Source: Mycobacterium sp. ITM-2016-00318
Lineage (GTDB): Bacteria > Actinomycetota > Actinomycetes > Mycobacteriales > Mycobacteriaceae
Assembly (NCBI RefSeq): GCF_002968285.2
Contig: NZ_CP134400.1
Coordinates: 1,798,001 to 1,862,000 of the forward strand
Reading direction: 5' to 3'
DNA: 64,000 nucleotides
This document shows, piece by piece, positions 10,338 to 30,042 of this stretch. The notes beneath the pieces were generated by a model, which saw only the letters and a program-made list of their open reading frames with translations, had not been told where the DNA came from and searched no databases. How positions within the stretch are numbered: position 1 is the first letter of the stretch; each line of letters opens with the position of its first letter. The translations under genes and the position numbers were made by a program.

Positions 10338-11342
10338 GTGCTCTCGCCGATCGCGTGGAGGACACCGCCTCGGCACTATGGGCCGTGGGAGCAGTTCGCG
10401 TCGCTTCTCACCGAGGGTCTGGTGGCAGCCGGCCATCATGTCACCCTGTTCGCCACTGCAGACTCGATCACCGCGGCCAGCCTGCACGCAACGGTGCCGT
10501 GTGGCTGGTCTGAGGATGCGACGATCGACGCCAAGGTCGCAGAGTGCCTGCACGTCGCCTCGGTATTCGAGCGCGCCGGCGAGTTCGACATCATTCACAA
10601 CGGGTTCGACTTCTTGCCGCTCACGTACAGCGATCTCGTCACGACACCGGTGATTACCACGATCCACGGCTTCTCGTCCGATCGGATCATTCCCGTCTAC
10701 AAGCGCTACGACAGCACCATCGCGTATGTGTCGATAAGCGACTCCGATCGACACCCAAGTTTGCACTATGCCGCCACGATCCACCACGGCATCGACATCG
10801 ACGAGTTCGCAATCGATCCCAGTCCGGGTGAGCATCTTCTGTTCTTCGGACGGATCCACCCCGACAAGGGAACCGCCCACGCGATCGAGGTCGCCCGACG
10901 ATGTGGCCGTCGGCTCGACATCGCCGGGATCATCCAGGATGAGCAGTACTTCCGAGACGAGGTCGCGCCGCATGTTGACGGCGAGCAGGTGCGCTACCTC
11001 GGCGCTGTCGACGCCTCTATGCGCGCCGAAGTGCTGGCAGGCGCGCATGCACTGCTTCACCTGATCGACTTCGACGAGCCGTTCGGTTACAGCGTCATCG
11101 AGGCGATGGCCTGCGGCACACCCGTTATCGCCAACTCGAGAGGCTCGATGGGTGAGCTGATCGCACACGGGGTGACCGGCTTTCTGGTTGACAGCATCGA
11201 TTCGGCGGTGGCCGCGGTCGCTTCAACCGGCGAGCTTGACCGGCGCACGATCGCCGAATCGGCCTCCGACCGGTTCACAGCCGCCGCCATGATCGACAAA
11301 TACATCGAGGTATACCGCGACGTCATCAACAACCGGAAATGA
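10338..11342 (+). CDS. GT4-family glycosyltransferase
   Basis: A retaining GT-B glycosyltransferase of about 334 residues. Signatures are the N-terminal LSPIAWRTPPRHYGPWE donor-acceptor loop, the central LLFFGRIHPDKG motif and the C-terminal EPFGYSVIEAMACGTPVI block that contains the family EX7E motif. The family transfers sugars from nucleotide-sugars; the acceptor is unknown. GTG at 10338 is used, but the conserved beta-strand (R-V-A-V-L-S) begins 12 bases earlier without ATG or GTG, so the true start may be non-canonical. Its stop overlaps the ATG of a truncated GH13 gene by 4 bp, so both were once one operon. Confidence 0.85.
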   Translation: MLSPIAWRTPPRHYGPWEQFASLLTEGLVAAGHHVTLFATADSITAASLHATVPCGWSEDATIDAKVAECLHVASVFERAGEFDIIHNGFDFLPLTYSDLVTTPVITTIHGFSSDRIIPVYKRYDSTIAYVSISDSDRHPSLHYAATIHHGIDIDEFAIDPSPGEHLLFFGRIHPDKGTAHAIEVARRCGRRLDIAGIIQDEQYFRDEVAPHVDGEQVRYLGAVDASMRAEVLAGAHALLHLIDFDEPFGYSVIEAMACGTPVIANSRGSMGELIAHGVTGFLVDSIDSAVAAVASTGELDRRTIAESASDRFTAAAMIDKYIEVYRDVINNRK

Positions 11343-11898: not shown

Positions 11899-12315
11899 TC
11901 AGACGGTTCGCGCCTCGTCGGCGTACTCGGGATTGGAGAGCTTTTCGGCAAGTTGGTCTAGCTTGGCCTGCAATTGCTGCCTCTGTTCGCCTTCAGCGGG
12001 GTTGATGTCACCCTCAGTTTGCCGCTTCAAATGCACTACCTTTTCGACGTACTTGTTGGCAGTTTCAATCGCCGAATCGATCTTTCCGAGCACGTCCTCT
12101 GCATCGGCAGGACTTGTGGCTGCCTCAATCTTGTCGGGATGGGTTTCGGTCCCCGTGATGGTGACTGCATGCCCCCGAGCTGTCTGCAGGAAGCAATCCG
12201 TCCAGGCGACGGGAGGCAGCGGCAGGATTTGAATCCGGATGATGGCTTGCTGCAGTGTTTCGCCTACGACGATCTCGGGCTTGCCGACTCTGGATATTCC
12301 CCATTTTTCTGACAT
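11899..12315 (-). CDS. Hypothetical 138-residue protein with C-terminal coiled coil
   Basis: The start at 12315 is supported by a strong AAAGAAAGGA Shine-Dalgarno. The first ~75 residues look like a compact beta-rich domain (repeated I/V-x-I/V patterns). Residues ~85-138 are charged and heptad-like, ending in a QQLQAKLDQLAEKL helix, so a coiled coil is likely. No signal peptide or membrane segment is visible. I do not recognise the family. It sits alone in an AT-richer patch between the GH13 stump and the mmpL gene, consistent with acquired DNA. Confidence 0.6.
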   Translation of the reverse strand: MSEKWGISRVGKPEIVVGETLQQAIIRIQILPLPPVAWTDCFLQTARGHAVTITGTETHPDKIEAATSPADAEDVLGKIDSAIETANKYVEKVVHLKRQTEGDINPAEGEQRQQLQAKLDQLAEKLSNPEYADEARTV

Positions 12316-12800
12316 CGCTAGTCCTTTCTTTGGCTCTCTAGTTGTGACCGTGAAGTCCAGCGTGGGACGCGGCCCGCTTCGACCCTTCGCGGGGGATGCA
12401 TGTGGGGTACCCGATCCGGCCTGATTAGATCGCGTCTTGAGTGATCTAACGCAGGTACCTAGCCAGCGCACATTCGCCTTTCGCGGGGGTTCGATTCCGG
12501 GCAACTCGACTGTCGAAGTGCCGCTGATCAGCCGCGCTTCTCCATTGAGCAGATGCCACGATGAGGGCGTGACTGAGCGTGTGATCGACGACCTTGCCGC
12601 GAACGCCTCGATCACGCCGGATCGCCTGAAACCCCGACTGGTCGTCCGACCGCTCCGGCGGGATGAGCACAAAAAGTGAGCACGTCCAAGATGACTGGTG
12701 GCCGTCACGATCACGTGTGACAACGGCACCAGCACGACGGCGACGGCGTACTTCTGAGTCCCAACGTCGCCGTTAACCCGATCCGCGCCCGAGCCGTGTA
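12316..12800. other. Intergenic region of 485 bases, no convincing gene
   Basis: It lies upstream of the small hypothetical gene and downstream of the mmpL gene. A perfect 7-bp inverted repeat is present at 12425. A plus-strand reading from about 12569 (opening VTERVIDDLAANAS, 36 codons, ending DEHKK) is too short and lacks a Shine-Dalgarno, so I do not call it. No tRNA was found. Confidence 0.5.
12425..12449. repeat. Perfect inverted repeat TTAGATC-N11-GATCTAA
   Basis: Seven-base arms at 12425-12431 and 12443-12449 are exact reverse complements with an 11-base spacer, about 110 bp upstream of the small hypothetical gene. There is no U-run, so it is more likely an operator or insertion scar than a terminator. 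Confidence 0.5.
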
Positions 12801-15269
12801 CTACGGCCCCGGCGGTTTCGGGTTGGTATGCCTTGTCCGCTGACGGCCTTGAATGATCCCGGGCTTTGCGTGCCGGACGGTGTCGGCCTCGGGTGCGCGT
12901 ATCGACGGGAGTCGCTGCGTTTCCTCGTCTCGATCAGGTGTCGGATGTGCGTGCCGGACGGTGTCGGCGTCCAGTGCGCTTAACGGTGCGAGTCGCCGTG
13001 TCTCCTCATCCAGCTGTAGTGACGGCGTTGGGAGCCGGACGGTGTCGGGTTCTGGCGCGCGGATTGGCGAGAGTCGCTCTGTCTCTTCTTCCACGTGACG
13101 TGTCGGTGGCGGGCACTCGGTTTCGGTCGTGGCTTCACTGAGTCCGATGCGTGCGTGCAGCCACTTCAGCGGCCGCGGCGCCCACCAGTTGAGGTCGCCT
13201 GCGACACGCAGAAATGCGGGTACCACGACACCGCGAATCACGGTGGCGTCGATGACAATGGCCAGCGCGGTACCGATGCCGAACATCTTCATGAAGGACA
13301 GCCCGTTGGCGAAGGACAACAACGTAATTGTGAGCAAGAGCGCGGCGCTGCTGATGATCCGGCCTACCCGCCCAAGCCCGACGACGATGGCGTCGTTGTT
13401 CGACAGCCCCGCGTCGCGGGCTTCCTTGATCCGGCTGAGCAGGAAGATCTCATAATCGACGGACAGGCTGAACGCGATGCAGCACAACAGGACAACCATG
13501 GACAGGTTCAGCGGCGCGGGGGTGACTCCGAGGATCGGGGCCAGGTGTCCGTCCTGGAAGATCCAGACCATTGTGCCGAGGACCGCGCTCAGCATCAGCA
13601 GGTTCAGGACGAGCGCCTTTATCGGCACCACGACGCTGCCCGTGAACAGGAACAGCAGCACGAACGTGGCCAGAGCGATCAGCAGAATTGCCACCGGAAG
13701 CCGGTCGCCGACTGCGGCGCTGGTGTCGGTGAGTGTGGCGGTCGGACCGCCGACCTCCACCTGGTGGTCATCGATCTCCGCACGGATTGCGAGCACGAGC
13801 TGTTGAGCGGCGTCCGACTGCGCGCCTACCGATAGAAAGACCAAACCATAGGCAGCACCATCATTTTCGAACCCTGGCATTGGGCCACTGATGAGCTCGC
13901 CGCGTTCGAACGTGCCACCGGGTGCAACCACGCGCACCACATCGTCCATGAGTGACACCGCAGCGGCAAGATCATCGAGCGCGCGGACATCGTTGCGGGC
14001 CAACAACGTCACCGCCTGCGACGTGTCGGTCGTGTAGTTGTCGCGCAGCGATTCGGCCACCAACCGTCCATTGGAATCGGACGGTAGCGCTCGTTCGTCG
14101 GGCATGGCGAGCTGCACGCCGAGGAAGGGAATGCCGAGCACCAGCAGGACTGCAATCACCGGCACGGCCCACTGCAGCGGCCTTTTCGTCACCGCCTCGG
14201 CGCAACGCCGCCAGAACGCCGAGTCTGCAGAGAGAGGAGCCTTTCGGCGGATGACCGAAAGCGAATCTATTCGCTTTCCCAGCAGGGCCAGCAGCGCCGG
14301 CAACACGACGATCGCACTGACTGCCGACAGGATCACTACGGCGCTCGCGGTGAGAGCGGTCGACCGAAGGAAGTAGAGGGGGAATACCAGAAGTCCGGAC
14401 ATTGCCAAGGTGACAGTTGCTGCGCTGAAGATGATCGTTCGACCGGCGGTCGTCACGGTCGCGATGATGGCCGACTGATGGTCCTTGCCCTTGTCGCGTT
14501 CCTCCCGGAATCGCGACACCATCAGCAGGCCGAAGTCGATGGACAACCCGAGACCGAACGCTGTCGCCACGGTGAGCGCGTGCACCGACACATCGGTGAC
14601 GCTGACCATGAGCGTCAACACCAGCAGTGTCATGACGATCGACGTGATACCGATGGCAAGAGGCAGGAAGGCGGCGACGAGACTGCCGAAAACGATAATC
14701 AGCATGACGAGCAGAATGGGTAGAGCGATGCTCTCGCTGATGACGAGATCGTGTTTGACTCGGTCCTCGATCTCTACCGATACGCCTAGCGGGCCGCCTG
14801 CACGCACTTCGATCGCCGGGTCGTCGGTGGGCAGCGCGTCGATGATCCGGATCGCCGTCTTCGTCGCCTCGTCAGTGGTTCCGCCGACATGCACGAGGAT
14901 GAGACCGGAGCGACCATCGTCACTGCGCAGATCCGTGGCCGGTTCGGAAGTGAACGATCCGACCACCTTCGCCGCGGGTTCGACCTCGACAAGCTGCCGC
15001 ACTCGATCTGCAGCCGCCGCGACGGCGGGATTCTCGACAGCGCCGTCACGCGCGACGACTTCCAACACCAGGTTGGGTGTCGAGGGGAAGTTCTGGTCGA
15101 GGTAGTCAGCGACCTGTGCCGATTCGGAGGCCGGGTCGACGAAACCACCGACGCCAAGCTTCTCGGACACCCCGGCGCCGAAGACGATGCTGACACCGAG
15201 TAGAGCTAGGACCGCGATGAGGATCATCTTCGGCTGCCGTACCGTCAGAACGGCCAACCGGCTCAACAT
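12801..15269 (-). CDS. MmpL-family RND lipid exporter with repetitive cytosolic tail
   Basis: About 822 residues with the MmpL plan: TM1 after MLSRLAVLTVRQPK, a periplasmic loop, a block of five or six helices, a second loop and the C-terminal helices around LSVDYEIFLLSRIKEARD. The ATG at 15269 overlaps the stop of the upstream thioesterase by 7 bp (ATGTTGA), so translation is coupled and I reject longer in-frame starts inside the thioesterase gene. Being last in the FAAL-PKS operon, it is the presumed exporter of the lipid product, as MmpL7, MmpL8 and MmpL10 are for other PKS lipids. The tail after the last helix holds three 27-residue repeats rich in Thr, Glu and Arg. No MmpS partner is adjacent. 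Confidence 0.88.
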   Translation of the reverse strand: MLSRLAVLTVRQPKMILIAVLALLGVSIVFGAGVSEKLGVGGFVDPASESAQVADYLDQNFPSTPNLVLEVVARDGAVENPAVAAAADRVRQLVEVEPAAKVVGSFTSEPATDLRSDDGRSGLILVHVGGTTDEATKTAIRIIDALPTDDPAIEVRAGGPLGVSVEIEDRVKHDLVISESIALPILLVMLIIVFGSLVAAFLPLAIGITSIVMTLLVLTLMVSVTDVSVHALTVATAFGLGLSIDFGLLMVSRFREERDKGKDHQSAIIATVTTAGRTIIFSAATVTLAMSGLLVFPLYFLRSTALTASAVVILSAVSAIVVLPALLALLGKRIDSLSVIRRKAPLSADSAFWRRCAEAVTKRPLQWAVPVIAVLLVLGIPFLGVQLAMPDERALPSDSNGRLVAESLRDNYTTDTSQAVTLLARNDVRALDDLAAAVSLMDDVVRVVAPGGTFERGELISGPMPGFENDGAAYGLVFLSVGAQSDAAQQLVLAIRAEIDDHQVEVGGPTATLTDTSAAVGDRLPVAILLIALATFVLLFLFTGSVVVPIKALVLNLLMLSAVLGTMVWIFQDGHLAPILGVTPAPLNLSMVVLLCCIAFSLSVDYEIFLLSRIKEARDAGLSNNDAIVVGLGRVGRIISSAALLLTITLLSFANGLSFMKMFGIGTALAIVIDATVIRGVVVPAFLRVAGDLNWWAPRPLKWLHARIGLSEATTETECPPPTRHVEEETERLSPIRAPEPDTVRLPTPSLQLDEETRRLAPLSALDADTVRHAHPTPDRDEETQRLPSIRAPEADTVRHAKPGIIQGRQRTRHTNPKPPGP
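12872..13100 (-). repeat. Three tandem 81-bp (27-residue) repeats in the MmpL C-terminal tail
   Basis: The sequence GCCGGACGGTGTCGG recurs at 12872, 12953 and 13034, exactly 81 bp apart. The encoded units share an EETxRLxP segment followed about ten residues later by DTVRL or DTVRH. The units are imperfect at DNA level, so the array is not very recent. The tail is hydrophilic, cytosolic and threonine-rich, a plausible site for Ser/Thr kinase phosphorylation or FHA-domain binding. Confidence 0.8.
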
Positions 15270-15955
15270 TTCTCGCTCACCACCGGCAGTCTGGACAGCA
15301 TGGGCCGCAGGGTCGCCAACAGCTGAGACGCGTCGCTTAGATAGAAGTGACCACCCCGCAGGATCTGCACGGAGAATTCGCCGGATGTTCGCGACCGCCA
15401 TTCGTGCAAATCGAACTCGTTCACCAGCGGGTCGTTGCTGCCACCAAAGGCGTGGATCGGGCAGGACAGCACGACCGGTTCGGCTTCCGAATCGGTCATG
15501 CACAGGCGCAGGTCGATTCGTGCCGTCGCGACAGCTCGATCGCGCAGGTCGGGCCAATCGGCGAGCTCCGGCGGGATGCCGCCCAAGTCGGACAACAGCG
15601 CCGTCAGCTGGTGATCGTCGAGGTGGTCAACCGCTGGTATCGGCGCCGGAAGATGAGGTGGCGCAAAGGACGACACCAGCAGAACGCAAGGTAACTGAGC
15701 GTCCGACGCCGCTCGTAGGCACGCCAACCTGTATGCCAGCAGGGCGCCGAAGCTGTGACCGAAGAACACATGCGGATCGTCGAATGCCGATTTCAGTTGG
15801 TCATTGACCTCTCCCACGAGATGGCGCAGCGTCGCGAATCGTTCACGGTTGAGGACCTCGACCGGAACTACATCGACGCCCGGTCCGAGCGCCTTGCTCC
15901 ACGCGTTGAACATCGCCCCGCCACCGCCGGCGTGATGGAAGCAGAACAACCGCAC
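15263..15955 (-). CDS. Type II thioesterase (TesA/RifR-like) of the PKS cluster
   Basis: An alpha/beta hydrolase of ~230 residues with the type II thioesterase hallmarks: RLFCFHHAGGGG near the N-terminus, the nucleophile elbow FFGHSFGA, the acid region FGGSNDPLV and the terminal His in GGHFYL. These enzymes hydrolyse stalled or wrong acyl groups from carrier proteins and support PKS throughput. I place the start at GTG 15955, just past the PKS stop; a TTG at 16006 overlapping the PKS end is also possible. The stop overlaps the mmpL start. Since product release is probably by the PKS's oxoamine-synthase domain, this enzyme is more likely editing than terminal. Confidence 0.85.
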   Translation of the reverse strand: MRLFCFHHAGGGGAMFNAWSKALGPGVDVVPVEVLNRERFATLRHLVGEVNDQLKSAFDDPHVFFGHSFGALLAYRLACLRAASDAQLPCVLLVSSFAPPHLPAPIPAVDHLDDHQLTALLSDLGGIPPELADWPDLRDRAVATARIDLRLCMTDSEAEPVVLSCPIHAFGGSNDPLVNEFDLHEWRSRTSGEFSVQILRGGHFYLSDASQLLATLRPMLSRLPVVSEKC

Positions 15956-15959
15956 CGTT

Positions 15960-18900
15960 TCACGCGCCTTCAGAGGCTTCCGTGAGGAGCGCAAGCTCCT
16001 CGACAATCGCTTTCACCGTGTATCGGATCTGCTCCTCCGAATGGCAGCTGGTAACGAAGAATCTCAGGCGCGCTTTGTCCTCCGGCACGGCCGGGTAGAT
16101 GATCGGGTTGGCGTTGATGCCCCGCCCGAGAAGAGCATTGGACAGCTTCAGCGCTGTGGCCGAGCTCCCCACGATGCACGGAATGACCGGTGTGCCCTCG
16201 CTGTCGCCGGTGTCGAGGCCGGCCTCGCGGGCAAGCGCCAGGAACAACGCGGATAACTCATTGAGCCGCTGCAGGTGCTCCGGCTCGCTGCGGATCGTGC
16301 GGATCGCGGCGAGCGATGCCGCCGCGGTGGGTGGTGGCATGCCCACGCTGTAGACGAAGCCCGGCGTCGTGTACTTGAGGAAGTCGACGAGCTCCCGGCT
16401 GCCGCAGACGTATCCGCCGCAGCCGGCCAGCGACTTCGACATCGTGCCGGACCACAGCTCGACGTCGGTTCTGTCGACGCCGAAGTGTTCGCCTATGCCG
16501 CCACCGGTTTCGCCGAGCACGCCGATGCTGTGCGCCTCGTCGATCATGAGCAACGCCCGGTGCTTGCGCTTGACCTCGATGAAGGCGGGTAGATCGGGGA
16601 TGTCACCGTCCTGGCTGTAGATGCCCTCGATGATGATCAGCACCCGGCGGTACTGGTGCCGGATGTTTTCGAGTAGCTCGTCGAGGGCGGCGTGGTCGTT
16701 GTGCGGGAACGGCCGGCGGGTGGCCCCGGAGAGCATGCAGCCTTGCATGATGCTGTCGTGAGCGAGGCTGTCGTGGATTACCAGATCGCCCTCGCCGAGC
16801 AGGTGCCCGATCACCGTGACGTTGGTGGCGTGGCCGCTGACCAGAGCGATCGCGTCCTCGGTGCCGAGCAGTTTCGCCAGCTCGAGCTCGAGTTCGCGGT
16901 GGACCGGCTTCTCTCCAGAGATCGGGCGGGACGCCGAGCACGAGCTGCCCCACCGGCGCACCGCGTCCGACACCGCCTCGGAGACCGCGGGGTGGCCCGA
17001 CATTCCCAGATAGTTGTAGCTGGAGAAGTTGATCACCTCGGCACCGTCGATGATCGAGGTGTCGCGAGTGACGCCGTCGTTGACTCTGAAATAGGGGTTG
17101 TCGACGCCGATCGCCTCGCCGAACGCGAACCGGTCGGCCAGGGCTTTCACCTCTTCGAACTCGCCGATCCGGAACTGCGGGGTGACCGCCGACGCGTTCG
17201 GCGCTGTCCCTGGTGAAGATTGATGCGCCTGCCCGCCGGCCATGCTGATCACGTCGGCGACTGTGGTGGTCGCGCCGAACCCCGCTGGGTCGAAAGTCAC
17301 CCCGGGGAGTTTGCGGCTGAGGCCGCTGAACACGTCGGCCACCATGATGGAGTCGAACCCCAGGTCCCCGACGATAGTCTGGGCCGGCCGCAGTTTGTGT
17401 TCCGGGAATCCACTGACCCGCGCAATCTCAGAGCGCACCATAGCGGTCGTGTCCTCGGCCGAATGCGCTTGCGGTTCAGCATCGGCCGGCGTGGCGGCAG
17501 CGAGATTGCCCTGCCCGTACGCGGCGAGTACGGCGGCCTGTTCGCGGAACAACGCGATGAGATCGTTCATCGTCGAATCCTTCGTTGGGTCTTTCGCGGT
17601 AACCGCCTTCGGGGCAGCACTCAATGTCGCCGGCCGGACGGCTCCGGCGCCCTCCTTGATCCAGAACCGGTTTGCGGTGCTGAACGAGTATCCGCTGAGC
17701 CGATGCCCGGTTCGAGCTTCGTTGGGGTAGAGCAAGTTCCACTCCGGGTTCAGACCGTCGCGGTAAAGTGCGGCGACGGTTCCGAGCGGATCGGCAGCGA
17801 CATTCATTGCAGGCGGGGCGTTTTGGTGCGATCGCGTGATCATCGGGCCGAGCGTGCGCTTGGTCCCGAACTCCACGAGGTGTGTCGGTTCGGCCTGCAT
17901 CGCTTCGGTTGCTGCGTCGGCGAACCGAACCGTGGCGCGGACGTGGGCAGCCCAGTAGTCCGCGTCCATCGGTTCGTCATCGCCGAGCAATCGGCCGTGC
18001 AGCGTGGAGAAGATCGGGTATGCGGGCCGTCGGTAGGAGCACTCCGCGGCCACCGACGCGAATTCCGCCGTCATGGGATCCATGAGTTGTGAGTGGAACG
18101 CGTGCGAGACGTTGAGCTTACGCACAGTGAACCCCGACTGTTCAAGGGCGTGTGCGGCGTCGTCGATCGCTTCCATTGCACCAGACAGCACGACCTCGCT
18201 CGGGCCGTTCACCGCGGCGAGATCGAGTGGAAAGCCGGCCACTTCATCGACGTGAGCGCGGACTGCCAACATGCCGCCGCCCGCAGGCAACTGCTGCATG
18301 AGACGGCCGCGGGCGACTACCAATCGGCAGGCGTCGTCAAAGCTGAACACATCGGCGACGACGGCCGCGGCGTACTCGCCGATGCTGTGCCCGAGCAGCC
18401 ACGCCGGTTCTGCGCCCAGCCGACGCAGTGCCTGTGCCTGCGCGTATTGCATCGCGAAAATCGCGGGCTGGGCGAACTCCGTGCGATCGACGTGTTCGCC
18501 GTTCATGACCTCGCGGATGCGCGCACCCAGGTGCGGCTCCATCGCTTCCTCGACCTCGTCGAGCGCCGCGCAGAAAACCGCGCTGCGCTCGCCGACCGCC
18601 GCCATGCCGGGGTATTGCGTGCCTTGGCCGCTGAACAGCCAGCCCGCCGACAGTCCAGCAGCGGTTCCCATTTCGAGGTCGCCCCGCAGCGCCGCGACGG
18701 CCTCGGCGCGGTCTCCGACGACGATCGCCAACCGTGACTCGCCGGAGGCCTTCATCCGGTTTGTCGACCAGCACAGCTGCGCCAGTGGAGCGACGTTTTT
18801 CTCGAGGTCGCCGGCCAGCTGCAAAGCATTGCGGCGCAACCCCTCTGGGCAATCTGCAGATAACGTGACGATTCCGGGCTCCGACGGTGCGTCCGACGAC

Positions 18901-20177
18901 GGCGCGCGCTCGGCCGACGGGGCGCTGGCGAGGACCATGTGGCAGTTCGTGCCACCGATACCGAAGCTGGAGACTCCGGCATGAACGGATGTCGCCGGCA
19001 GTTCCATCGGTTCGGACAGTATCCGCAGTCCACCGTCGGCGAGCCGAAGCTGTTCGTTCTCCGAATCGGCGAAGCGGGACGGCGGCACCACTCGATGGTG
19101 CATGCTGAGCGCCACCTTGATAAGGCCTGCGATACCTGCCGCGCCCTCGGTGTGGCCTAAGTTGCCCTTGATCGAGCCGATCGCGCATGGGGTGTCGCGG
19201 CGCGAACGGTGAGCGTGCGCAAGTGCTTTCGCCTCGATCATGTCGCCCAGGATGGTCCCTGTGCCGTGTGCTTCGAGGAAGCTGATCTGCTCGGGCGAAA
19301 TCCCGGCGGTTCGGCATGCGGTGGCGACGACCTGCTGCTGCGCCCAGCGGTTCGGCGCCGTGATGCCGTTGCTGCGGCCGTCGCTGTTGACCGCGCTGCC
19401 CTTGATCGTGGCGTAGATCGGCAAGCCCTCGGCATCTGCGTCCGCCAGACGGCGCAGGACGACAACGGCGACTCCCTCGCCACGTCCGATTCCATCAGCC
19501 TTGCCGCTGAACGGTTTACAACGGCCGTCCGGAGCCGCCAAGCCCGCCTTCGTATAGAAGACGTTGAGTGCAGGGGTGAGTGTGAGGTTGACGCCGGCTG
19601 CGACTGCCTGGTCGCATCCCCTGTTGCGCAGAGCCTCCACGGCCAGATGCGCGGCAACCAGTGACGACGAGCACGCGGTGTCCACCGCGAGGCTCGGACC
19701 TGTCAGATCGAGTTGGTAGGAAAGCCGGTTCGCGGTCATGAAATAGCCGTTGCCCGAACCGTCCTGCGCTGTGATCGCGCGGTAGTCACTCATGTGCAGG
19801 TGGGCCCACTCGTTGGCCATCACACCCACGAACACCCCGGTATTGGAACCGGCCTGCCCGCGAGGGTCGAGCGTGGCGTTCTCCAGCGCGCGCCACACCG
19901 TCTGAAGGAGTAGCCGTTGCTGCGGATCCATCGCCGCCGCCTCGCGCGGCGATATGCCGAAGAAATCGTTGTCGAAGGCATCGGCGTCGCTGATCAACCC
20001 GCCGGCCAGATGGTTGATGGCGCCCTCGCGGTGCAATTCGGCCGCGTTCCAGCGCTCGGCCGGGATTTCGTCGATAGCGTCTGCGCCGTCGAGCAGCAGT
20101 TTCCACAGGGCGGCGGGATCGTCCGCCTTCGGGAAACGGCAATCCAGGCCCACAATCGCGATGTCGTCGGAGTTCAT
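15960..20177 (-). CDS. Type I PKS (KS-AT-ACP) fused to a PLP-dependent alpha-oxoamine synthase
   Basis: The 1405-residue protein has, in order: ketosynthase (1-420; catalytic C169, H304, H342), acyltransferase (510-800; GHSIGE with S598 and the malonyl-type HAFH motif at 692-695), ACP (910-980; phosphopantetheine S943 in GFDSI), and a fold-type I aminotransferase-like domain (1005-1400; DEAHS at 1213, PLP lysine K1248 in SGTMSK) of the AONS/KBL/serine-palmitoyltransferase family. There are no KR, DH or ER domains. Expected chemistry: one malonyl extension, then decarboxylative condensation of the ACP-bound beta-ketoacyl chain with an amino acid, releasing an amino-ketone lipid. The amino acid (Ala, Ser or Gly) cannot be read from sequence. 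The start overlaps the FAAL stop (ATGA). Fused PKS-oxoamine synthases are known (for example SxtA, prodiginine enzymes); I recall none characterised in mycobacteria. Confidence 0.92.
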   Translation of the reverse strand: MNSDDIAIVGLDCRFPKADDPAALWKLLLDGADAIDEIPAERWNAAELHREGAINHLAGGLISDADAFDNDFFGISPREAAAMDPQQRLLLQTVWRALENATLDPRGQAGSNTGVFVGVMANEWAHLHMSDYRAITAQDGSGNGYFMTANRLSYQLDLTGPSLAVDTACSSSLVAAHLAVEALRNRGCDQAVAAGVNLTLTPALNVFYTKAGLAAPDGRCKPFSGKADGIGRGEGVAVVVLRRLADADAEGLPIYATIKGSAVNSDGRSNGITAPNRWAQQQVVATACRTAGISPEQISFLEAHGTGTILGDMIEAKALAHAHRSRRDTPCAIGSIKGNLGHTEGAAGIAGLIKVALSMHHRVVPPSRFADSENEQLRLADGGLRILSEPMELPATSVHAGVSSFGIGGTNCHMVLASAPSAERAPSSDAPSEPGIVTLSADCPEGLRRNALQLAGDLEKNVAPLAQLCWSTNRMKASGESRLAIVVGDRAEAVAALRGDLEMGTAAGLSAGWLFSGQGTQYPGMAAVGERSAVFCAALDEVEEAMEPHLGARIREVMNGEHVDRTEFAQPAIFAMQYAQAQALRRLGAEPAWLLGHSIGEYAAAVVADVFSFDDACRLVVARGRLMQQLPAGGGMLAVRAHVDEVAGFPLDLAAVNGPSEVVLSGAMEAIDDAAHALEQSGFTVRKLNVSHAFHSQLMDPMTAEFASVAAECSYRRPAYPIFSTLHGRLLGDDEPMDADYWAAHVRATVRFADAATEAMQAEPTHLVEFGTKRTLGPMITRSHQNAPPAMNVAADPLGTVAALYRDGLNPEWNLLYPNEARTGHRLSGYSFSTANRFWIKEGAGAVRPATLSAAPKAVTAKDPTKDSTMNDLIALFREQAAVLAAYGQGNLAAATPADAEPQAHSAEDTTAMVRSEIARVSGFPEHKLRPAQTIVGDLGFDSIMVADVFSGLSRKLPGVTFDPAGFGATTTVADVISMAGGQAHQSSPGTAPNASAVTPQFRIGEFEEVKALADRFAFGEAIGVDNPYFRVNDGVTRDTSIIDGAEVINFSSYNYLGMSGHPAVSEAVSDAVRRWGSSCSASRPISGEKPVHRELELELAKLLGTEDAIALVSGHATNVTVIGHLLGEGDLVIHDSLAHDSIMQGCMLSGATRRPFPHNDHAALDELLENIRHQYRRVLIIIEGIYSQDGDIPDLPAFIEVKRKHRALLMIDEAHSIGVLGETGGGIGEHFGVDRTDVELWSGTMSKSLAGCGGYVCGSRELVDFLKYTTPGFVYSVGMPPPTAAASLAAIRTIRSEPEHLQRLNELSALFLALAREAGLDTGDSEGTPVIPCIVGSSATALKLSNALLGRGINANPIIYPAVPEDKARLRFFVTSCHSEEQIRYTVKAIVEELALLTEASEGA

Positions 20178-21922
20178 CGCAGGTGTTCCTGGTGCAGAAC
20201 GTCGGTGAGTTCGCCGTCGAGGTACGTGGTCCGCATCGATGCCCGCTGCACCTTGCCGCTGGTGGTGAGGTGAATCCCAGCCCGGTTGACGAACACCACG
20301 CCGGGGGCGGGGACCTCGAAGGCGCGGGCGACGGCGCCCTTGACTGCGGCGGCGAGCTCGCGAAAGCTCATATCACCGAGCAACTCAGGCTTGACGGCCT
20401 GAATCAGGACAAGACGTTCAGCATCGTCGACGTCGACTGGAATCACGCATCCGCGCGAACCGCTCACCGCGGGGTGCACGTCCTGTACGAACTCTTCGAT
20501 GTCCTGTGGATACAGGTTGCGGCCGTTGATGATCAACAGATCCTTGAGGCGACCGGTGACGTAGAGCTCGTCAGCATGGAGTAGCCCGAGGTCGCCGGTG
20601 CGCAGATAAGGATGCTCTCCATCCGAAGTGTGGGCGCGAAACCGTTCGATCGTCTCCGCAGGACGGTTGTGGTAACCGCTTGCCACGCTGGCACTGCGCA
20701 GCCAGATCTCGCCGACCCGGTCTTCGGCGAGCGCCTCGAGGGTCTCGGGTTCGACGACTCGCACCTCGACTCCAGGTGCCGGCTCGCCCGAGCTGACCAG
20801 GCTGATGGCGCGGTCCTTGGCGGGTAGGTAGCGGTGCTGTTCGAGGGAGTCGGCGTCGGCGTCAAGGTGGCGCGGAACGCCGCGGCTCACGGTGGCCATC
20901 AGTGTCACCTCAGCCATGCCGTACCCAGGGCGCATCGCCGACGGCGAAAAGCCGACCGGAGCAAGGACTTCGGTGATTCGCTCGACGGTGCGGCGGCGAA
21001 CGGGCTCGGCGCCGTTGAGGGCGACTTCCCAAGCAGACAGATCAAGGCCGGCGAGTTGCTCGGGAGTCACTCGCCGCGCGATCAAGTCGTAGGCGAAATT
21101 CGGTGCCGCGGTAATGGTTCCGTGGTAATCGCTGAGCGCCTTCAGCAGCCTGACGGGTTGCTTCAGAAACGCCAGCGGCGACATGGTGACGAGGTTGGCT
21201 CCGTTGAAGAACGCCAGCAACTGGCCGATGAGGCCCATATCGTGAAAGTGCGGGATCCAGCCGACCAGCACCGACTTGCTGCTTGCCCGGAGGGCTTCAG
21301 ACATTGCCGTCTCGTTGCTCACCATGTTGCCGTGGGTCACGGCCACGCCCTTCGGGGCTCCGGTCGACCCGGACGTGTACTGAAGAAACGCGACGATGTC
21401 GGAGGCGAAACGCGGCATCGTCCACGAGTCCGCATCGGCGAGCGGCGCGTTGTCGATCGCCACGCACTGCAGTGGGCGCTCGAGATCAAATCCCTCGATG
21501 CCCGCGGTGAGCAGTCCGCGCAGCTTCTCGGTGGTCAACGCCAGGCTGCTGTCCGCATCGCGAAGTATCCCGGCGACGCGCTTCATGCTCCGCTCATCCA
21601 TGGGAAGCGGGGTGGGCACAGCGACGACTCCGGCATAAAGGCAGCCGAGGAACGCGCGCCAGAAATCGATACCCGGCTCGAACAGGAGCAGCACCGGACG
21701 ATCGGTGTCCGGTCGTGAACTGAGCCACGCGGCGACCTCGCGGGCATCACGGTCGAGCTCGCCGAAACTCAGCGCCTCGGGAACGAGACGTCGGCCAGAC
21801 TCGTTCAGGAACGTGAAACAGCGAGTATCTGCGAATAACTCGAATTGCGACCGCAGCTGCGAAACGAGGTCTTTGGGAGCAACGCAGGGCGTTGCAGTGC
21901 TCCCGTTGTCATCCATGGTCAT
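20174..21922 (-). CDS. Fatty-acyl-AMP ligase (FAAL, FadD type)
   Basis: An adenylating enzyme of 582 residues with FAAL features: P-loop QYTSGSTGAPKGV, GWIPHFHDMGLIG, APNFAYDLI, NGAEPVR, and the C-terminal TGRLKDLLIINGRNLYPQDIE hinge. FAALs activate fatty acids as acyl-adenylates and load them on ACP or PKS rather than CoA. ATG 21922 is preferred over the GTG at 21928 because the GAAGGAG Shine-Dalgarno is 5 bases upstream of it. It overlaps the downstream PKS by 4 bp and follows the free ACP gene by ~215 bp. It is expected to supply the starter chain to the ACP at 22139 or directly to the KS. Confidence 0.92.
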   Translation of the reverse strand: MTMDDNGSTATPCVAPKDLVSQLRSQFELFADTRCFTFLNESGRRLVPEALSFGELDRDAREVAAWLSSRPDTDRPVLLLFEPGIDFWRAFLGCLYAGVVAVPTPLPMDERSMKRVAGILRDADSSLALTTEKLRGLLTAGIEGFDLERPLQCVAIDNAPLADADSWTMPRFASDIVAFLQYTSGSTGAPKGVAVTHGNMVSNETAMSEALRASSKSVLVGWIPHFHDMGLIGQLLAFFNGANLVTMSPLAFLKQPVRLLKALSDYHGTITAAPNFAYDLIARRVTPEQLAGLDLSAWEVALNGAEPVRRRTVERITEVLAPVGFSPSAMRPGYGMAEVTLMATVSRGVPRHLDADADSLEQHRYLPAKDRAISLVSSGEPAPGVEVRVVEPETLEALAEDRVGEIWLRSASVASGYHNRPAETIERFRAHTSDGEHPYLRTGDLGLLHADELYVTGRLKDLLIINGRNLYPQDIEEFVQDVHPAVSGSRGCVIPVDVDDAERLVLIQAVKPELLGDMSFRELAAAVKGAVARAFEVPAPGVVFVNRAGIHLTTSGKVQRASMRTTYLDGELTDVLHQEHLR

Positions 21923-22138
21923 CGCCACTCCTTCGGGTCACCGCCAAGGCGGTCGCCGGAGATGACTACAGCGCGACCTACGAGGCGGACCCTCCGATCA
22001 CAGCAAAGCTGTGCATTGAGATAGTGACCCCAAAGCCGCGGTTTGACAACCCTGAGTTCCTGGTCAGATGCAAGCGGTGCCCGGGACTGGTCATCGACGT
22101 CTTGGCAAATTTCTACCGGGCCAGCGGCCAGGACGCCT

Positions 22139-22402
22139 TCATGCCACCTGCTCGCGCTCGGCGACGCTGGTGCCGATGAAGTCGGCGATGCGCGACAGGG
22201 TGGGGTAGTCGAAGATCATCGTCGGGTCGACCTCGATATCGAAATGCAGTTCGACGTCACCGACGAGGCTGATGGCGTGCACGGAGTCGACGCCCATTTC
22301 GGCCAGGGGAACCATGGGGTTGATGGCGGTCGCCGGTACCTCGAGGTATGAAGCGAGTTGCTTGGTGAGCCAGCCGAGGATCGGGCGGCGGTTTGCGTTC
22401 AT
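22139..22402 (-). CDS. Stand-alone acyl carrier protein of the PKS cluster
   Basis: An 87-residue carrier protein with the phosphopantetheine serine S40 in GVDSVHAIS and the expected four-helix pattern. It is the first gene of the minus-strand cluster ACP-FAAL-PKS-TE-MmpL. The likely role is to receive the fatty acyl chain from the FAAL and present it to the KS of the PKS. The gap to the FAAL gene (about 215 bp) is larger than the other junctions and holds no gene I can see, so a second promoter there is possible. Confidence 0.88.
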   Translation of the reverse strand: MNANRRPILGWLTKQLASYLEVPATAINPMVPLAEMGVDSVHAISLVGDVELHFDIEVDPTMIFDYPTLSRIADFIGTSVAEREQVA

Positions 22403-22683
22403 TATGCGCTCCTTCGATGGTCTGTTTGTTCCGTAAGTCGACGAAAGCGCTGACTTCGATCAGGCTTCGCCGGTGCGTGCGGCTTGTGATCAATGGTCGT
22501 GGTCACGCGGCGATCCGGTAATCGCAGGGAAGCCAGATTCCACCTCGGAAAGGAGAGGGTTTGCTGTCCGCCAGGCAAGGTGTGAACTCCGCGCCCTTCG
22601 AGATGGCATGCTCGTTGTGAACGGCGTGTAGAAGGATCTGAGCCGGGAACACAAGTACCGCCCAGCCGACGCGAAAGACAACG

Positions 22684-24501
22684 ATGTCCATCGATAACAG
22701 TGCCCGACCGGCCACGACAACCTCGACGGCCAAGAACCTCGCGACGATGTTTTACGACCGTGTCGAGGCATCCGCCGGCAAGGAAGCGTTCCGAAGACTC
22801 GTCGACGGGAAATGGACCTCGCTGACCTGGCGCGAAGCCGCCGAACAGGTGGAAGCACTGGCGGCCGGGCTGCTCGCACTGGGCCTCGAACCCGAGCAGC
22901 GGGTCGGCATCGCGTCGAGTACCCGCTATGAGTGGATACTGGCCGACCTGGCGATCATCTGTGCTGGCGGCGCAACCACCACCGTTTATCCGACGACGAA
23001 CGCCGATGACACCGCCTACATCCTGCGCGACTCGGGATCTCGGTTCGTATTCGCCGAGGACGACGCACAGCTGAACAAGCTGCTGGAACGTCGCGACGAC
23101 CTGCCTGACCTCGAGAAGGTGGTGCTGTTCGACGGTGCGGGTGACGGAGACTGGGTGCTGTCGCTCGACGACGTCGCGGCGTTGGGCACCCGACACTTGC
23201 AGGAGCATCCGAAATCGGTGCGCGAACGCGCCGATGGCATCCCCGCCGAGCAGTTGGCGACGCTGATTTACACATCGGGCACCACCGGCAAGCCGAAGGG
23301 CGTACGGCTGTCCCATCGAGCCTGGGTGTACGAAGGCGACGCCATCGCGGGCTTCGGGATCCTCGACGAGGACGACCTGCAACTGCTCTGGTTACCGCTC
23401 GCGCACGCGTTCGGCAAGGTGCTGATCTCGGCCCAGCTCGCGTGCGGCTTCGCCAGCGCCATCGACGGCCGGGTGGACAAGATCGTGGAGAACATGGGCA
23501 CGGTCAAGCCGACGTTCATGGGCGCCGCCCCGCGCATCTTCGAGAAGGCCCACGCCAAGGTCGTCACCTCCCAGAAGGGTGCCAAGGAGAAGTTGTTCAA
23601 CGCCGCGTTCGCGGTCGGGCGGCAAGTCGACCGCCGGCGGCTGGCGGGCAAGTCGGTGCCGCTGCCGTTGAAGGCCGCGCACGGGTTGTTCGACCGGCTG
23701 GTGTTCAGCAAGGTGCGAAACGTGTTCGGCGGCCGGATCAAGTTAATGATCTCCGGCTCGGCGCCGCTGAACCGCGAGATCGGCGAGTGGTTCCACGCCG
23801 CAGGGCTGCTGATCCTGGAGGGTTACGGGCTCACCGAGACGTCGGCCGGCGCATTCATCAACCGCTTGGAGAACTACAAGCTGGGCACCGTCGGGCAGGT
23901 GTTCGACGGTACCGACACACGTATCAGCGACGACGGCGAGGTGCTGGTCAAGGGCCCCTGTGTGATGGACGGCTATCACAACCTCCCCGACAAGACAGCG
24001 GAGACGCTGACCGAAGACGGCTGGCTGCGCACTGGCGACAAGGGTCAGCTCGACGAGGACGGCTTCCTCACGATCACGGGGCGGCTCAAGGAACTGTTCA
24101 AGACCTCCGGCGGCAAGTACGTCGCACCGCCGGCGATCGAGAGCAAGTTCATGGCGCTGTGCCCCTACGCGGGCCACATGCTGGTATTCGGCGAGTCACG
24201 CAACTTCTGCGTCGCGCTGATCACGCTGGACCCCGACGCGATCAGCGGCTGGGCCAAGGAAAACGGGCTTGGCGATCAGGACTACGCCGACTTGGCGAAG
24301 TCAGACCGGGTACGAGACATGATCGGCGAGCACGTGCAGCGACTCAACTCCGAGCTGAACCGGTGGGAGACCATCAAGAAGTGGGAGATCCTCGATCACG
24401 ACCTGTCCATCGAACGCGGCGAGCTGACTCCTTCGTTGAAGGTGAAGCGGTCGGTGATCGCCGACGAGCAAAAGGATCTGCTCGACTCGTTCTACTCCTG
24501 A
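22684..24501 (+). CDS. Long-chain acyl-CoA synthetase (FadD15-like)
   Basis: A 605-residue AMP-forming ligase with the motifs LIYTSGTTGKPKGV, GYGLTETSAGA, GWLRTGDKG and TGRLKELFKTSGGKYV. The FKTSGGKYVAP form and overall length fit long-chain acyl-CoA synthetases of the FadD11/FadD15 type, not FAALs. It makes fatty acyl-CoA from fatty acid, ATP and CoA. It is divergent from the ACP gene at 22402; the 280-bp spacer probably carries both promoters. It may compete with or feed the FAAL pathway, or may simply be a general fatty-acid activator. It is convergent with the SDR at 24521. Confidence 0.9.
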   Translation: MSIDNSARPATTTSTAKNLATMFYDRVEASAGKEAFRRLVDGKWTSLTWREAAEQVEALAAGLLALGLEPEQRVGIASSTRYEWILADLAIICAGGATTTVYPTTNADDTAYILRDSGSRFVFAEDDAQLNKLLERRDDLPDLEKVVLFDGAGDGDWVLSLDDVAALGTRHLQEHPKSVRERADGIPAEQLATLIYTSGTTGKPKGVRLSHRAWVYEGDAIAGFGILDEDDLQLLWLPLAHAFGKVLISAQLACGFASAIDGRVDKIVENMGTVKPTFMGAAPRIFEKAHAKVVTSQKGAKEKLFNAAFAVGRQVDRRRLAGKSVPLPLKAAHGLFDRLVFSKVRNVFGGRIKLMISGSAPLNREIGEWFHAAGLLILEGYGLTETSAGAFINRLENYKLGTVGQVFDGTDTRISDDGEVLVKGPCVMDGYHNLPDKTAETLTEDGWLRTGDKGQLDEDGFLTITGRLKELFKTSGGKYVAPPAIESKFMALCPYAGHMLVFGESRNFCVALITLDPDAISGWAKENGLGDQDYADLAKSDRVRDMIGEHVQRLNSELNRWETIKKWEILDHDLSIERGELTPSLKVKRSVIADEQKDLLDSFYS

Positions 24502-24520: not shown

Positions 24521-25372
24521 TCATGACCCGCCGAATGTCCGCCGGTCCCAGAACATTACGAGCTTGGTGTAGTAGCGGGGGGTGAGCCGAACCAAGGCGT
24601 CTACTCCCTTGGCATCCTTGCCGACCAGCACGCGGCTTCGGTTGGCCTGCACTCCGTCGAGGATGATGCGGGCCGCCTGTTGCGGCGACATCTTCAGCAG
24701 CTTCTTGTTGTAGGCCTCTGCGCGTTGCCGTTGTTGTTCGGTGATCTCCGCTCCGGTCTTTTCGGCCTCGGTGATCGCGGCTGTGGCGATGTTGGTCTTT
24801 ATGCCGCCCGGGTGCACCAGCGTCACCTGCACGGGGTGGCCGGCCGCAAGCATCTCCGCACGAAGGGATTCGGTGAATCCCCTGACAGCGAACTTGGTTG
24901 TGCAGTACGCACTCATCGATGCCTGTGCCATGATCCCGTTCAGGCTGGAGATGTTGACGACATGCCCGTCGCCGGACTCGATGAGATGCGGCAAGAACTC
25001 TTTGGTGCCGTGAATCACGCCCCATAGATTAATGGCGATGATGCGCTCGTAAGTGTCGTAGTCGCAGTCGATGACGGGCGCCGCGCCACCGGCGACGCCG
25101 GCGTTGTTGTAGATCTGGTGCACAACGCCGTAATGCGCGACCACTGAAGATGCATAGGCCTGGACGGCGGTACGGTCGCTGACGTCAAGAAGCTCGACGT
25201 GCGGCTCGGCATTGAGGGCGGCAAGCCTTTCGGCAGTGCCGTCGAGGCCTTCGTCGTCGACGTCTGAGATCGCGACGCGGGAGCCGCGAAGGGCGAGGCC
25301 GATCGCCAGTTCTCGGCCGATGCCCGAACCGGCCCCCGTGACGACTGCGACCCTGCCGTCGAACGAACTCAT
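24521..25372 (-). CDS. Short-chain dehydrogenase/reductase
   Basis: A classical SDR of 283 residues with TGAGSGIG cofactor loop, NNAG motif, catalytic S in NISSLNG, and YCTTK (YxxxK). The C-terminal extension of ~60 residues, rich in basic residues, is common in mycobacterial SDRs that act on lipophilic alcohols or ketones. The ATG at 25372 shares one base with the stop of the BVMO gene (TGATG), so the two are translationally coupled. It is the last gene of the five-gene minus-strand catabolic operon and probably interconverts an alcohol and the ketone used by the BVMO. Confidence 0.88.
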   Translation of the reverse strand: MSSFDGRVAVVTGAGSGIGRELAIGLALRGSRVAISDVDDEGLDGTAERLAALNAEPHVELLDVSDRTAVQAYASSVVAHYGVVHQIYNNAGVAGGAAPVIDCDYDTYERIIAINLWGVIHGTKEFLPHLIESGDGHVVNISSLNGIMAQASMSAYCTTKFAVRGFTESLRAEMLAAGHPVQVTLVHPGGIKTNIATAAITEAEKTGAEITEQQRQRAEAYNKKLLKMSPQQAARIILDGVQANRSRVLVGKDAKGVDALVRLTPRYYTKLVMFWDRRTFGGS

Positions 25373-26910
25373 CAGCCGTTGCCCTTGCGACTCACCGAAT
25401 TTCGTACTGACGCGGTCTCGTACGCGTCGATGTCGAAGCGCTTGGTCTGCCGGCGGAAGCGGAATGTGAAGTCGGGCCACAGGGTGGTGTTGTTGCCGTG
25501 GGCATCCAGATACCAGCTGGCACAGCCCCCGGTCATCCACACGGATCCACTGAGTTTGCGTTGCAGTTGGTCGTTGTACGCGTCCTGCGCGTCTCGTCGC
25601 ACGTCGACGCGTTGGAGGCCGTGACGTTTCATCGTGGTGAGGGCGTCGACGACGTAATTGATCTGGGATTCGATCATGTACACCATCGAGGTGTGACCAA
25701 GGCCGACATTCGGTCCGACGAGCACAAACATGTTCGGAAACCCCGCGATGGTCGTGCCTTTGAAAGCCTGCATGCCCTTGTCTGCGAACGTTTGGCTGAG
25801 GCTTCGTCCGTCCTTGCCGCATACGACATCGAACATCGGGGAGTCGGTGACGTGGAAACCCGTCGCGACGATGATGGCGTCCACCTCGCGTGCGGTGCCG
25901 TCTTCAGTGATGACTCGACGCCCATCGACCTCGCGAATGCCGTCAGTGACCAGTTCAACATGCTCGCGGTCCAGAGTGGGATACCAATCGTTGGCGATGA
26001 GCATCCGCTTGCACCCGATGCGGAAATTCGGTGTCACCTTGCGCCGTAACTCTGGGTCCTTGATCTCGGTGCGAATCTTGGCGCGCGAAATCAGCTCGAA
26101 TGGCTTCATCATGCGTGGGTTCTTGGCCAGGCCGACGACCTGACTCTCACGCGCAGCGTAGATGCCTGCGCGGGCCAGCCGCAGCGTCGCAGGGATGTTG
26201 CGAAACGCCCACCGCTCGACGCGGCTGAATGCGCGATCGAAGCGCGGCAGCAGCCAGGGGGCGGTGCGCTGGTACACGTCGATGTGCGCCACGGTGTCCG
26301 CGATGGCTGGAACCAGCTGAATCGCAGACGCGCCCGTGCCGATGACGGCGACGCGCTTGCCGGCGAGGTCTGCGCCGTGGTTCCACTGGGCCGAGTGGAA
26401 CAGTTCGCCATCGAAATCGTCGATGCCGGGGATGCCCGGAAGCGACGGCTCAGCCAAAGCCCCGAAAGCACCGATCAAGACGTCGGCGGTCATCGGCCCG
26501 TGCGAGGTCGAAAGCTCCCACCGGTTGTGCTGCTGTTGCCAGGCCGCTCTCGTCACTTCGCAACCGAACACGTGACGATCCAGGACGCCCGAGCGGCGCG
26601 CGACGCCGCGGATGTATGCCTCGATCTCGGGTTGGGTTGAAAACGATCGGGTCCAGTCGGGGTTGAGCGCGAAGGAGTACGAGTAGAGATGCGACGGCAC
26701 ATCGCAGGCCGCGCCAGGGTATGTGTTATCGCGCCACGTGCCGCCGACATCTTGACCGCGTTCCAATACGATGAAGTCGTGGTGGCCGGCCTCGTCGAGC
26801 TTGATGGCGGCACCCACACCGGAGAATCCACTCCCGACGATCGCGACTCGAACGTGGTCGGGTAATCGCTCCGCAGCTGCAGAATCGAGCTTCGAAGAGC
26901 GAGTCATCAA
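25372..26910 (-). CDS. Flavin-containing Baeyer-Villiger-type monooxygenase
   Basis: A 512-residue protein with two Rossmann motifs (GSGFSGVG near the N-terminus, GTGASA centrally) and a BVMO fingerprint variant (FDGELFHSAQWNHG, fitting FxGxxxHxxxW). The GGTWRDNTYPGAACDVPSHLYSYSF block is typical of mycobacterial EthA/MymA-related FAD monooxygenases. It would insert oxygen next to a ketone to give an ester, using NADPH and O2. It sits between a P450 and an SDR, which suggests a hydroxylation-oxidation-ring-opening sequence on a cyclic or aliphatic ketone. The substrate is unknown. Confidence 0.9.
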   Translation of the reverse strand: MMTRSSKLDSAAAERLPDHVRVAIVGSGFSGVGAAIKLDEAGHHDFIVLERGQDVGGTWRDNTYPGAACDVPSHLYSYSFALNPDWTRSFSTQPEIEAYIRGVARRSGVLDRHVFGCEVTRAAWQQQHNRWELSTSHGPMTADVLIGAFGALAEPSLPGIPGIDDFDGELFHSAQWNHGADLAGKRVAVIGTGASAIQLVPAIADTVAHIDVYQRTAPWLLPRFDRAFSRVERWAFRNIPATLRLARAGIYAARESQVVGLAKNPRMMKPFELISRAKIRTEIKDPELRRKVTPNFRIGCKRMLIANDWYPTLDREHVELVTDGIREVDGRRVITEDGTAREVDAIIVATGFHVTDSPMFDVVCGKDGRSLSQTFADKGMQAFKGTTIAGFPNMFVLVGPNVGLGHTSMVYMIESQINYVVDALTTMKRHGLQRVDVRRDAQDAYNDQLQRKLSGSVWMTGGCASWYLDAHGNNTTLWPDFTFRFRRQTKRFDIDAYETASVRNSVSRKGNG

Positions 26911-27011
26911 TTCCCCCGTGGCCGTGTCCTCCCGCCGGGAGGGCGCTTCAGTCCAGTAGGTTACCGCTGTAGTCGGCGGAACCAGAACACGGTACGCCGG
27001 ATGGGCGCCAC

Positions 27012-29136: not shown

Positions 29137-29173
29137 GCGGGTCCTTTCTTTCGGAGGCGGCGGGTAGCGCCGG

Positions 29174-29941: not shown

Positions 29942-29964
29942 ATTCACTCCTGCATTACGCACAT

Positions 29965-29985
29965 ACTTGACCATTGAAGTCAAGT
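29965..29985. promoter_or_regulatory. Perfect inverted repeat (ACTTGAC-N7-GTCAAGT), probable TetR operator
   Basis: Seven-base arms at 29965-29971 and 29979-29985 are exact reverse complements with a 7-base spacer. It lies in the ~100-bp divergent promoter region between the SDR at 29941 and the ALDH at 30043. A TetR-family regulator is encoded as the third gene of the rightward operon. The site is well placed to control both operons by repression. Binding is inferred, not shown. Confidence 0.6.
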
Positions 29986-30042
29986 GCCTTAGGAATAAGT
30001 AATGTATCTTAAAAGCTGGGCACGATGAAGCCGGAGGACCAT

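Follow-up and report, generated by a model that had tools for sequence, protein, structure and literature searches.

A probable split RedL-type gene cassette of Mycobacterium sp. ITM-2016-00318 and its predicted alkyl-ketopyrroline lipid product

Introduction

In Streptomyces, RedL has been described to extend a dodecanoyl chain with malonyl to a beta-ketomyristoyl thioester, which reacts with glycine by pyridoxal phosphate (PLP) chemistry under loss of CO2; ring closure of the amino-dione yields 4-keto-2-undecylpyrroline (PMC11188435). This compound is an intermediate of the undecylprodiginine pathway, in which RedK converts it to 2-undecylpyrrole (PMC11188435), and it has been found in S. 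coelicolor cultures (PMC6261592). Here, a five-gene cassette of Mycobacterium sp. ITM-2016-00318 is compared with the RedL system. It is located on the minus strand of a window of 64,000 nucleotides (positions 1798001-1862000 of the 5.46-Mb one-contig genome) and encodes a free acyl carrier protein (ACP), a fatty acyl-AMP ligase (FAAL), a polyketide synthase (PKS) module fused to an oxoamine synthase (OAS), a type II thioesterase (TE) and an MmpL protein. By analogy with RedL, it is probable that this cassette is a split RedL-type machine with a RedJ-like TE, making an alkyl-ketopyrroline (hydroxypyrrole) lipid.

Gene organization and domain content

The initial annotation had described the five-gene run with its domains, and this is in agreement with the Pfam matches and the positions of the open reading frames (ORFs). 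The genes, in window coordinates, are:

22139-22402, minus strand: free ACP, 87 aa, phosphopantetheine site MGVDSVHA, Pfam PP-binding 2e-14
20174-21928, minus strand: FAAL, Pfam AMP-binding 3e-56 plus a DIP2-like AMP domain
15960-20177, minus strand: PKS-OAS fusion, 1405 aa, assigned by Pfam, motifs, NCBIfam and trees; ketosynthase (KS) 4 to about 420, acyltransferase (AT) 513-770, ACP 914-977, OAS about 1020-1405
15263 to about 15955, minus strand: type II TE, motif GHSFGA, Pfam Thioesterase 9e-31
12801 to about 15269, minus strand: MmpL (RND-type lipid exporter family), Pfam MMPL (PF03176) 1e-69 in two stretches

The 918-aa MmpL frame and the 247-aa TE frame are mechanical ORF extents, and their starts were re-set from the sequence and from relatives. 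For the TE, GTG 15955, 4 nt past the PKS stop, is the probable start, and for the MmpL ATG 15269 is the likely one. With these starts, the overlaps that had been noticed at the FAAL/PKS and TE/MmpL junctions amount to 4 nt (ATGA) and 7 nt, respectively. A gap behind the ACP gene is present as well, but its size is not the 215 bp given before: it measures 210 bp to GTG 21928 or 216 bp to ATG 21922, the better placed of the two FAAL starts. The ATG of the ACP gene is preceded by a Shine-Dalgarno-like GGAG. Two flanking ORFs on the minus strand, 22402-23382 and 11899-12735, gave no Pfam match and were excluded from the cassette; the former overlaps a divergent ligase gene.

The KS and AT motifs of the fusion protein were found intact: DTACSSS (166), EAHGTGT (302), GNLGHTEG (338), GHSIGEY (596) and HAFHS (692). 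The ACP carries GFDSI (940) and the OAS carries HDSLAHDS (1135) and MIDEAH (1211), while K1248, previously pointed out as the PLP lysine, sits within the motif SGTMSKS. The HAFH motif of the AT is taken here to be of the malonyl type. No ketoreductase (KR), dehydratase (DH) or enoylreductase (ER) domain was matched by Pfam in the 1405-aa protein, and no reductase gene lies inside the five-gene run.

Among the best 25 of 98 NCBIfam matches of the AMP-binding protein, a non-ribosomal peptide synthetase/PKS model and fatty-acid--AMP ligase models ranked highest, all below their cut-offs; this ranking places the protein nearer to FAAL than to CoA-ligase models. The OAS domain remained under the curated cut-offs of the serine palmitoyltransferase (SPT) models (301, 269 and 198 bits against 640, 500 and 670) and of the BioF (8-amino-7-oxononanoate synthase, AONS) model TIGR00858 (347 bits, cut-off 426). 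Similarly, the MmpL scored 375 bits against the MmpL3 model, whose cut-off is 1400.

Comparison with RedL

Six red-type loci (L129-L133 and L146; loci and genomes are numbered L and G) served for comparison. Their genus was inferred to be Streptomyces, since nearly all of the best named protein matches are from this genus. All six hold a RedJ-like TE, a RedK-like reductase, a FAAL-ACP-KS-AT-ACP-OAS protein and a carrier-OAS protein; family scans covered part of the genes per locus and, in the loci so scanned, also showed an amino-acid adenylation protein together with a FabF-type KS. The Red names were assigned from domain layout and gene neighbours, and the layouts published for S. griseoviridis, A-CP-KS-AT-PLP2 and CP-CP-PLP2, agree with them (PMC3870968). 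An assignment of the flanking KS of these loci as RedX was dropped, as the two that were scanned are FabF-type by NCBIfam and more like RedR.

The RedL-like protein of L146 comprises 2297 aa; a 2290-aa protein of S. anthocyanicus matches its OAS part at 100% identity, which further supports the Red names. In the order of the reactions, the cassette has the same parts: FAAL, ACP, KS, malonyl AT, ACP and terminal OAS, with no reductive domain and with a type II TE nearby. The identities were 39% for FAAL, 27% for the free ACP, 46% for KS, 39% for AT, 33% for the internal ACP and 53% for OAS. Between the TE and its RedJ-like counterpart in L146, identity was 36% (phmmer, 1.9e-30). In the OAS tree, the cassette rows form a single clade (100/99). 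When 5-aminolevulinate synthase (ALAS), 2-amino-3-ketobutyrate CoA ligase (KBL), AONS, SPT, LCB2 and RedN-like references were included, cassette and RedL-like rows fell together in a clade of carrier-linked OASs (100/98), and the RedN-like rows were placed elsewhere, with a bacterial SPT row (93/74). The pathway had been put forward as a candidate undescribed one; however, RedL has been reported to carry out these reactions in the same sequence (PMC11188435). Prodiginine enzymes had indeed been named as fused examples, but RedL and its ring closure had been missed.

Several observations weigh against a RedL-type assignment. RedL is one polypeptide, whereas the corresponding parts of the cassette are divided over three genes (ACP, FAAL and KS-AT-ACP-OAS). 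The cassette also lacks RedK and the other prodiginine genes, unlike the Streptomyces red loci: among ORFs of at least 100 aa, no RedK match at E <= 1e-5 was obtained in the window or in 26 other cassette loci (two of them duplicates), while all six red-type loci gave one. The best RedK match in the own genome reached 30% identity and 81 bits. The active-site motif changes from TP in RedL to SR in the cassette OAS, and the amino acid may therefore differ from that of RedL. The KS tree speaks for the link to RedL: the cassette, L002 (a KS-AT protein with no OAS) and the RedL-like proteins group together (95/86), and ten other PKS KSs as well as a Streptomyces KS-AT-ACP-OAS/MmpL lineage fall outside. 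It contains few comparators, however, drawn by similarity to the window protein, and L096 has a long branch in it. In the OAS tree with no reference enzymes, the fork that joins RedL to the cassette relatives is weak (82/70). Moreover, the cassette OAS is nearer to the Streptomyces MmpL-linked PKS OASs (65-66%, two compared) and to a planctomycete FAAL-ACP-OAS protein (L073, 61%) than to RedL. Since the nearest OAS relatives are not RedL, the KS and OAS of the cassette may have had separate evolutionary histories. In searches of open-licence papers, judged by titles and starts of abstracts, neither the cassette nor a mycobacterial lipid made by it was described.

Some further features of RedL relatives were observed. 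In three of the six red-type loci (L129, L131 and L132), the RedK match lies inside the same long frame as RedL. Many RedL homologues of about 2500-2750 aa bear an extra epimerase/SDR (short-chain dehydrogenase/reductase) domain (PF01370), which is consistent with RedL-RedK fusions of this kind. In one genome from another family of the order (G273), RedL-like, RedN-like and RedJ-like genes occur together (L096, 1317-12691); no RedK match was found in that 20-kb stretch, and a prodiginine-like cluster is possible.

Proposed pathway

From the protein families, it can be proposed that the FAAL would adenylate a free fatty acid and load it onto the free ACP. The KS would accept the acyl chain, the AT would charge the internal ACP with malonyl, and a single condensation would give an unreduced 3-oxoacyl-ACP. 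The PLP domain, whose family and active-site residues are those expected, would then couple this thioester to an amino acid, releasing CO2. The resulting 1-amino-2,4-dione, R-CO-CH2-CO-CH(R')-NH2, would close on itself to a 4-keto-2-alkylpyrroline, a tautomer of an alkyl-hydroxypyrrole. The RedJ-like TE may provide the free fatty acid or clear stalled carriers. With no RedK, the ketone would persist unless another enzyme acts on it, and the MmpL, judging by the position of its gene, may export the lipid or a derivative. Loading of the ACP by the FAAL, one malonyl extension, capture of an amino acid by the OAS and the presence of MmpL in the run had all been put forward in the initial annotation, and family and motif data are in line with them.

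The sphingoid-like product proposed there was not supported. Because the module contains no KR, DH or ER, a 3-oxoacyl thioester is expected to reach the OAS, and the product should be cyclised and not an open sphingoid amino ketone. A sphingoid-like amino ketone or alcohol with an open chain would arise if a housekeeping fatty-acid reductase acted in trans, or if the OAS used the unextended chain. A reductase acting in trans on the 3-oxoacyl-ACP could also work against ketopyrroline formation. There are precedents for an open chain: in Pseudomonas, PfSgaAB, an iterative PKS with an oxoamine synthase, makes C24-C28 sphinganines with L-serine (PMC12134224), and in Caulobacter an SPT is fed by a dedicated ACP and acyl-ACP synthetase (PMC9386255). 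Also, the row of eukaryotic LCB2, an SPT subunit, is sister to the carrier-linked OAS clade (98/91), on a long branch and among few rows, and the serine before R1084 is common to the window, SPT, LCB2 and RedN-like rows. On the other hand, this serine occurs in five of five Streptomyces ALASs, a glycine family, as well. The five-gene run holds no reductase gene, the SgaAB-like loci of mycobacteria have a fully reducing PKS with a separate OAS, and RedL, the closest characterised fused module, cyclises its product (PMC11188435). An open-chain product is considered rather unlikely.

By analogy with RedL, the amino acid could well be glycine, although this assignment is tentative. Serine appears a less likely partner and alanine an unlikely one. 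In the GSSCSAS-R motif, the position preceding R/P is occupied by a beta-branched residue in RedL-like proteins (T) and KBL (V), and by S in SPT, in RedN-like proteins and in the window. A one-residue rule, by which S would indicate serine or alanine, was dropped in view of the S in the Streptomyces ALASs.

It was also considered that the ketopyrroline is only an intermediate, from which genes elsewhere in the genome build a larger compound, be it prodiginine-like, acylated or glycosylated, that is then exported. The RedL product of Streptomyces is itself an intermediate (PMC11188435), and SDR, flavin monooxygenase (FMO) and cytochrome P450 genes lie upstream, past the divergent gene (24521-28358). 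However, a second OAS of the RedN/PigH type was not found among the 14 other Aminotran_1_2 matches of the genome. Their frames (354-549 aa) are all shorter than those of RedN-like carrier protein (CP)-OASs, which have at least 629 aa in the six Streptomyces loci and 559 aa in L096. With the OAS query, a single further match in the own genome passed E <= 1e-60; its frame has 450 aa, and 5 of the 18 candidates were scored. In addition, among 36 loci compared, non-cassette gene families each occurred in at most 7. Further conversion before export seems improbable, and the ketopyrroline itself is preferred as the product.

Distribution and conservation

Searches at the level of genus, order and phylum were carried out with the ACP-OAS part as query. 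In the genus, 28 of 248 genomes gave a match at E <= 1e-60. Eleven, the own genome included, were below 1e-110, six of them at 72-100% and five at 51-53% identity. At E <= 1e-110, matches were obtained in 8/298 genomes of the order and 3/396 of the phylum (own genome included in both). A scan of genome contigs gave 40 loci. As distinct loci with a full-length fusion, 25 were taken, namely the window, L050-L071 and, from the order search, L092 and L094; L093 and L099 were left out as copies of L062 and L070, their contigs being equally long, and L087 for its partial OAS match. The hosts belong to Mycobacterium, Smaragdicoccus, Rhodococcus, Prescottella, Nocardia, Antrihabitans and Skermania. 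The nearest named relatives of the PKS-OAS are those of Mycolicibacterium moriokaense (89% in the ACP-OAS part) and [Mycobacterium] manitobense (87%). In a protein search, the best 120 of 4316 proteins were all at or below 91% identity in the part compared.

Within 12 kb of the PKS-OAS, and with score cut-offs chosen by the authors, ACP and FAAL were present in 24 of the 25 loci, TE in 14 and MmpL in 8; a weaker MmpL on the opposite strand in L061 (222 bits) was not counted. The complete five-gene set, for which a neighbourhood search had been suggested, was found in six loci: the window, L050, L051, L058, L070 and L071. In L051 and L070, the ACP gene has the opposite orientation. Comparison with M. 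moriokaense (L050) and [M.] manitobense (L071) gave dN/dS ratios of 0.15-0.24 for every gene of the cassette, consistent with purifying selection; the MmpL comparison with L071 covered 639 codons only. The gene run is not due to chance, because dN/dS is in this range and the PKS-OAS has ACP and FAAL beside it in 24 of 25 loci.

These data also bear on whether the cassette is a non-functional or decayed remnant. Its distribution is patchy (6/248 genomes of the genus at 72% identity or more), and in M. intermedium (L052, 7370-11572) the PKS-OAS stands between FMO-type and sugar kinase genes with no ACP, FAAL, TE or MmpL matches nearby. The intact motifs and the low dN/dS of all five genes argue against decay, which appears highly improbable. 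For an empty-site comparison, the flanking glycosyltransferase (10338-11342) was used; it had a match at E <= 1e-60 in 3 of the 41 genomes, the own genome being one and neither of the other two belonging to the genus, and no empty site could be read.

On the upstream side of the cassette, a FadD11-like ligase gene (22684-24501, plus strand) is divergent. Past it, SDR, FMO, P450, carboxymuconolactone-decarboxylase-like and second SDR genes follow in a row (24521-30364, minus strand), in what looks like a separate catabolic operon.

Related loci

Streptomyces KS-AT-ACP-OAS fusions beside MmpL (L134-L139, L144, L145 and L090) carry the closely related OASs mentioned above. An MmpL match was found in nine of nine, their KS is of another lineage than that of the cassette, and no FAAL match was obtained in the 20-kb loci. 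Fusions of this type are present in many named Streptomyces, and in L139 a gene of the phosphopantetheinyl transferase family adjoins the fusion; three more of the loci carry relatives of this gene.

A second mycobacterial KS-AT-ACP-OAS lineage, with an adjacent FAAL gene, occurs in 5/248 genomes of the genus (L097, 7455-13678; L098, 6188-15998; L019-L023). It is 51-53% identical to the ACP-OAS part of the window protein, and its KS is of another lineage in the two tested. In planctomycetes (L072-L076), single proteins combine FAAL and OAS with no KS or AT matches; in L073, the one scanned with Pfam, an ACP lies between them, and the window FAAL is 40% identical to a planctomycete FAAL-ACP-OAS protein. 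Related OASs were also found in rumen and gut Clostridia (L079-L085) and in planctomycete L078; in L084 and L085 the OAS is fused behind an AMP-ligase-like part.

Stand-alone mycobacterial OASs were seen beside a KS-AT-DH-ER-KR-ACP PKS in four of six loci fetched (genomes G080, G126, G219 and G063):

L172, 1474-12101: reducing PKS with OAS
L173, 6923-17032: reducing PKS with OAS
L175, 8216-15975: reducing PKS with OAS
L176, 1032-8713: reducing PKS with OAS
L171, 1-5467: OAS with the ER-KR-ACP end only, on a short contig

No PKS was seen in the remaining locus, L174. An MmpL match adjoins the PKS/OAS genes in L171, L172 and L173. The loci with a reducing PKS and a separate OAS resemble Pseudomonas SgaAB, and a sphingoid-like product would fit them better than the cassette.

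Significance and comparison with known systems

With the proposed pathway, an orphan lipid cassette gains a concrete predicted structure, with a ketopyrroline ring and an exact mass. The results suggest at least two designs for OAS-linked PKS lipids in mycobacteria: non-reducing fused modules, with predicted rings as products, and fully reducing PKSs with a separate OAS, for which sphingoid-like bases are predicted. MmpL genes are found in some loci of each, and a search for sphingoid-like bases of mycobacteria would better start from the reducing-PKS/OAS loci. Tentatively, some mycobacteria, rhodococci and nocardiae may make, and in part export, 2-alkyl-4-ketopyrroline (alkyl-hydroxypyrrole) lipids as heterocyclic envelope or secreted compounds, their source being a RedL-type module that no longer serves pigment synthesis and that, in some lineages, has been joined by a dedicated exporter.

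In the searches of open-licence papers, no such ketopyrroline lipids of these genera turned up, nor did a characterised mycobacterial cluster with a known product, in line with the initial annotation, which had named no mycobacterial lipid made in this way; papers with "oxoamine synthase" and "polyketide" were not mycobacterial by title. The word Mycobacterium is absent from the main text of PMC3870968, and the stem mycobacter from that of PMC12134224.

Other described systems share single traits with the cassette. As in PfSgaAB, an oxoamine synthase would capture a PKS-made acyl thioester, but PfSgaAB combines an iterative PKS with a separate, serine-preferring synthase and makes very long sphinganines (PMC12134224), whereas the cassette has a non-reducing module, a fused OAS and a FAAL/ACP feed. 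In the AcpR/AasR/SPT system of Caulobacter, an oxoamine synthase likewise receives its acyl chain from an ACP and an acyl-ACP synthetase devoted to this task (PMC9386255); the system differs in using serine, in having a separate SPT and in the lack of PKS extension. The SerT-type PigH/RedN proteins are carrier-protein-fused OASs that lead from a beta-ketothioester to a pyrrole (PMC11188435), but their OAS is 38% identical and distant in the trees, they use serine and they have no KS-AT in the protein. RedL remains the closest characterised fused module, and the cassette differs from it by the MmpL found in some loci. The RedL-type chemistry is known; the variation lies in the division over separate genes, a new host group and the adjacent exporter gene.

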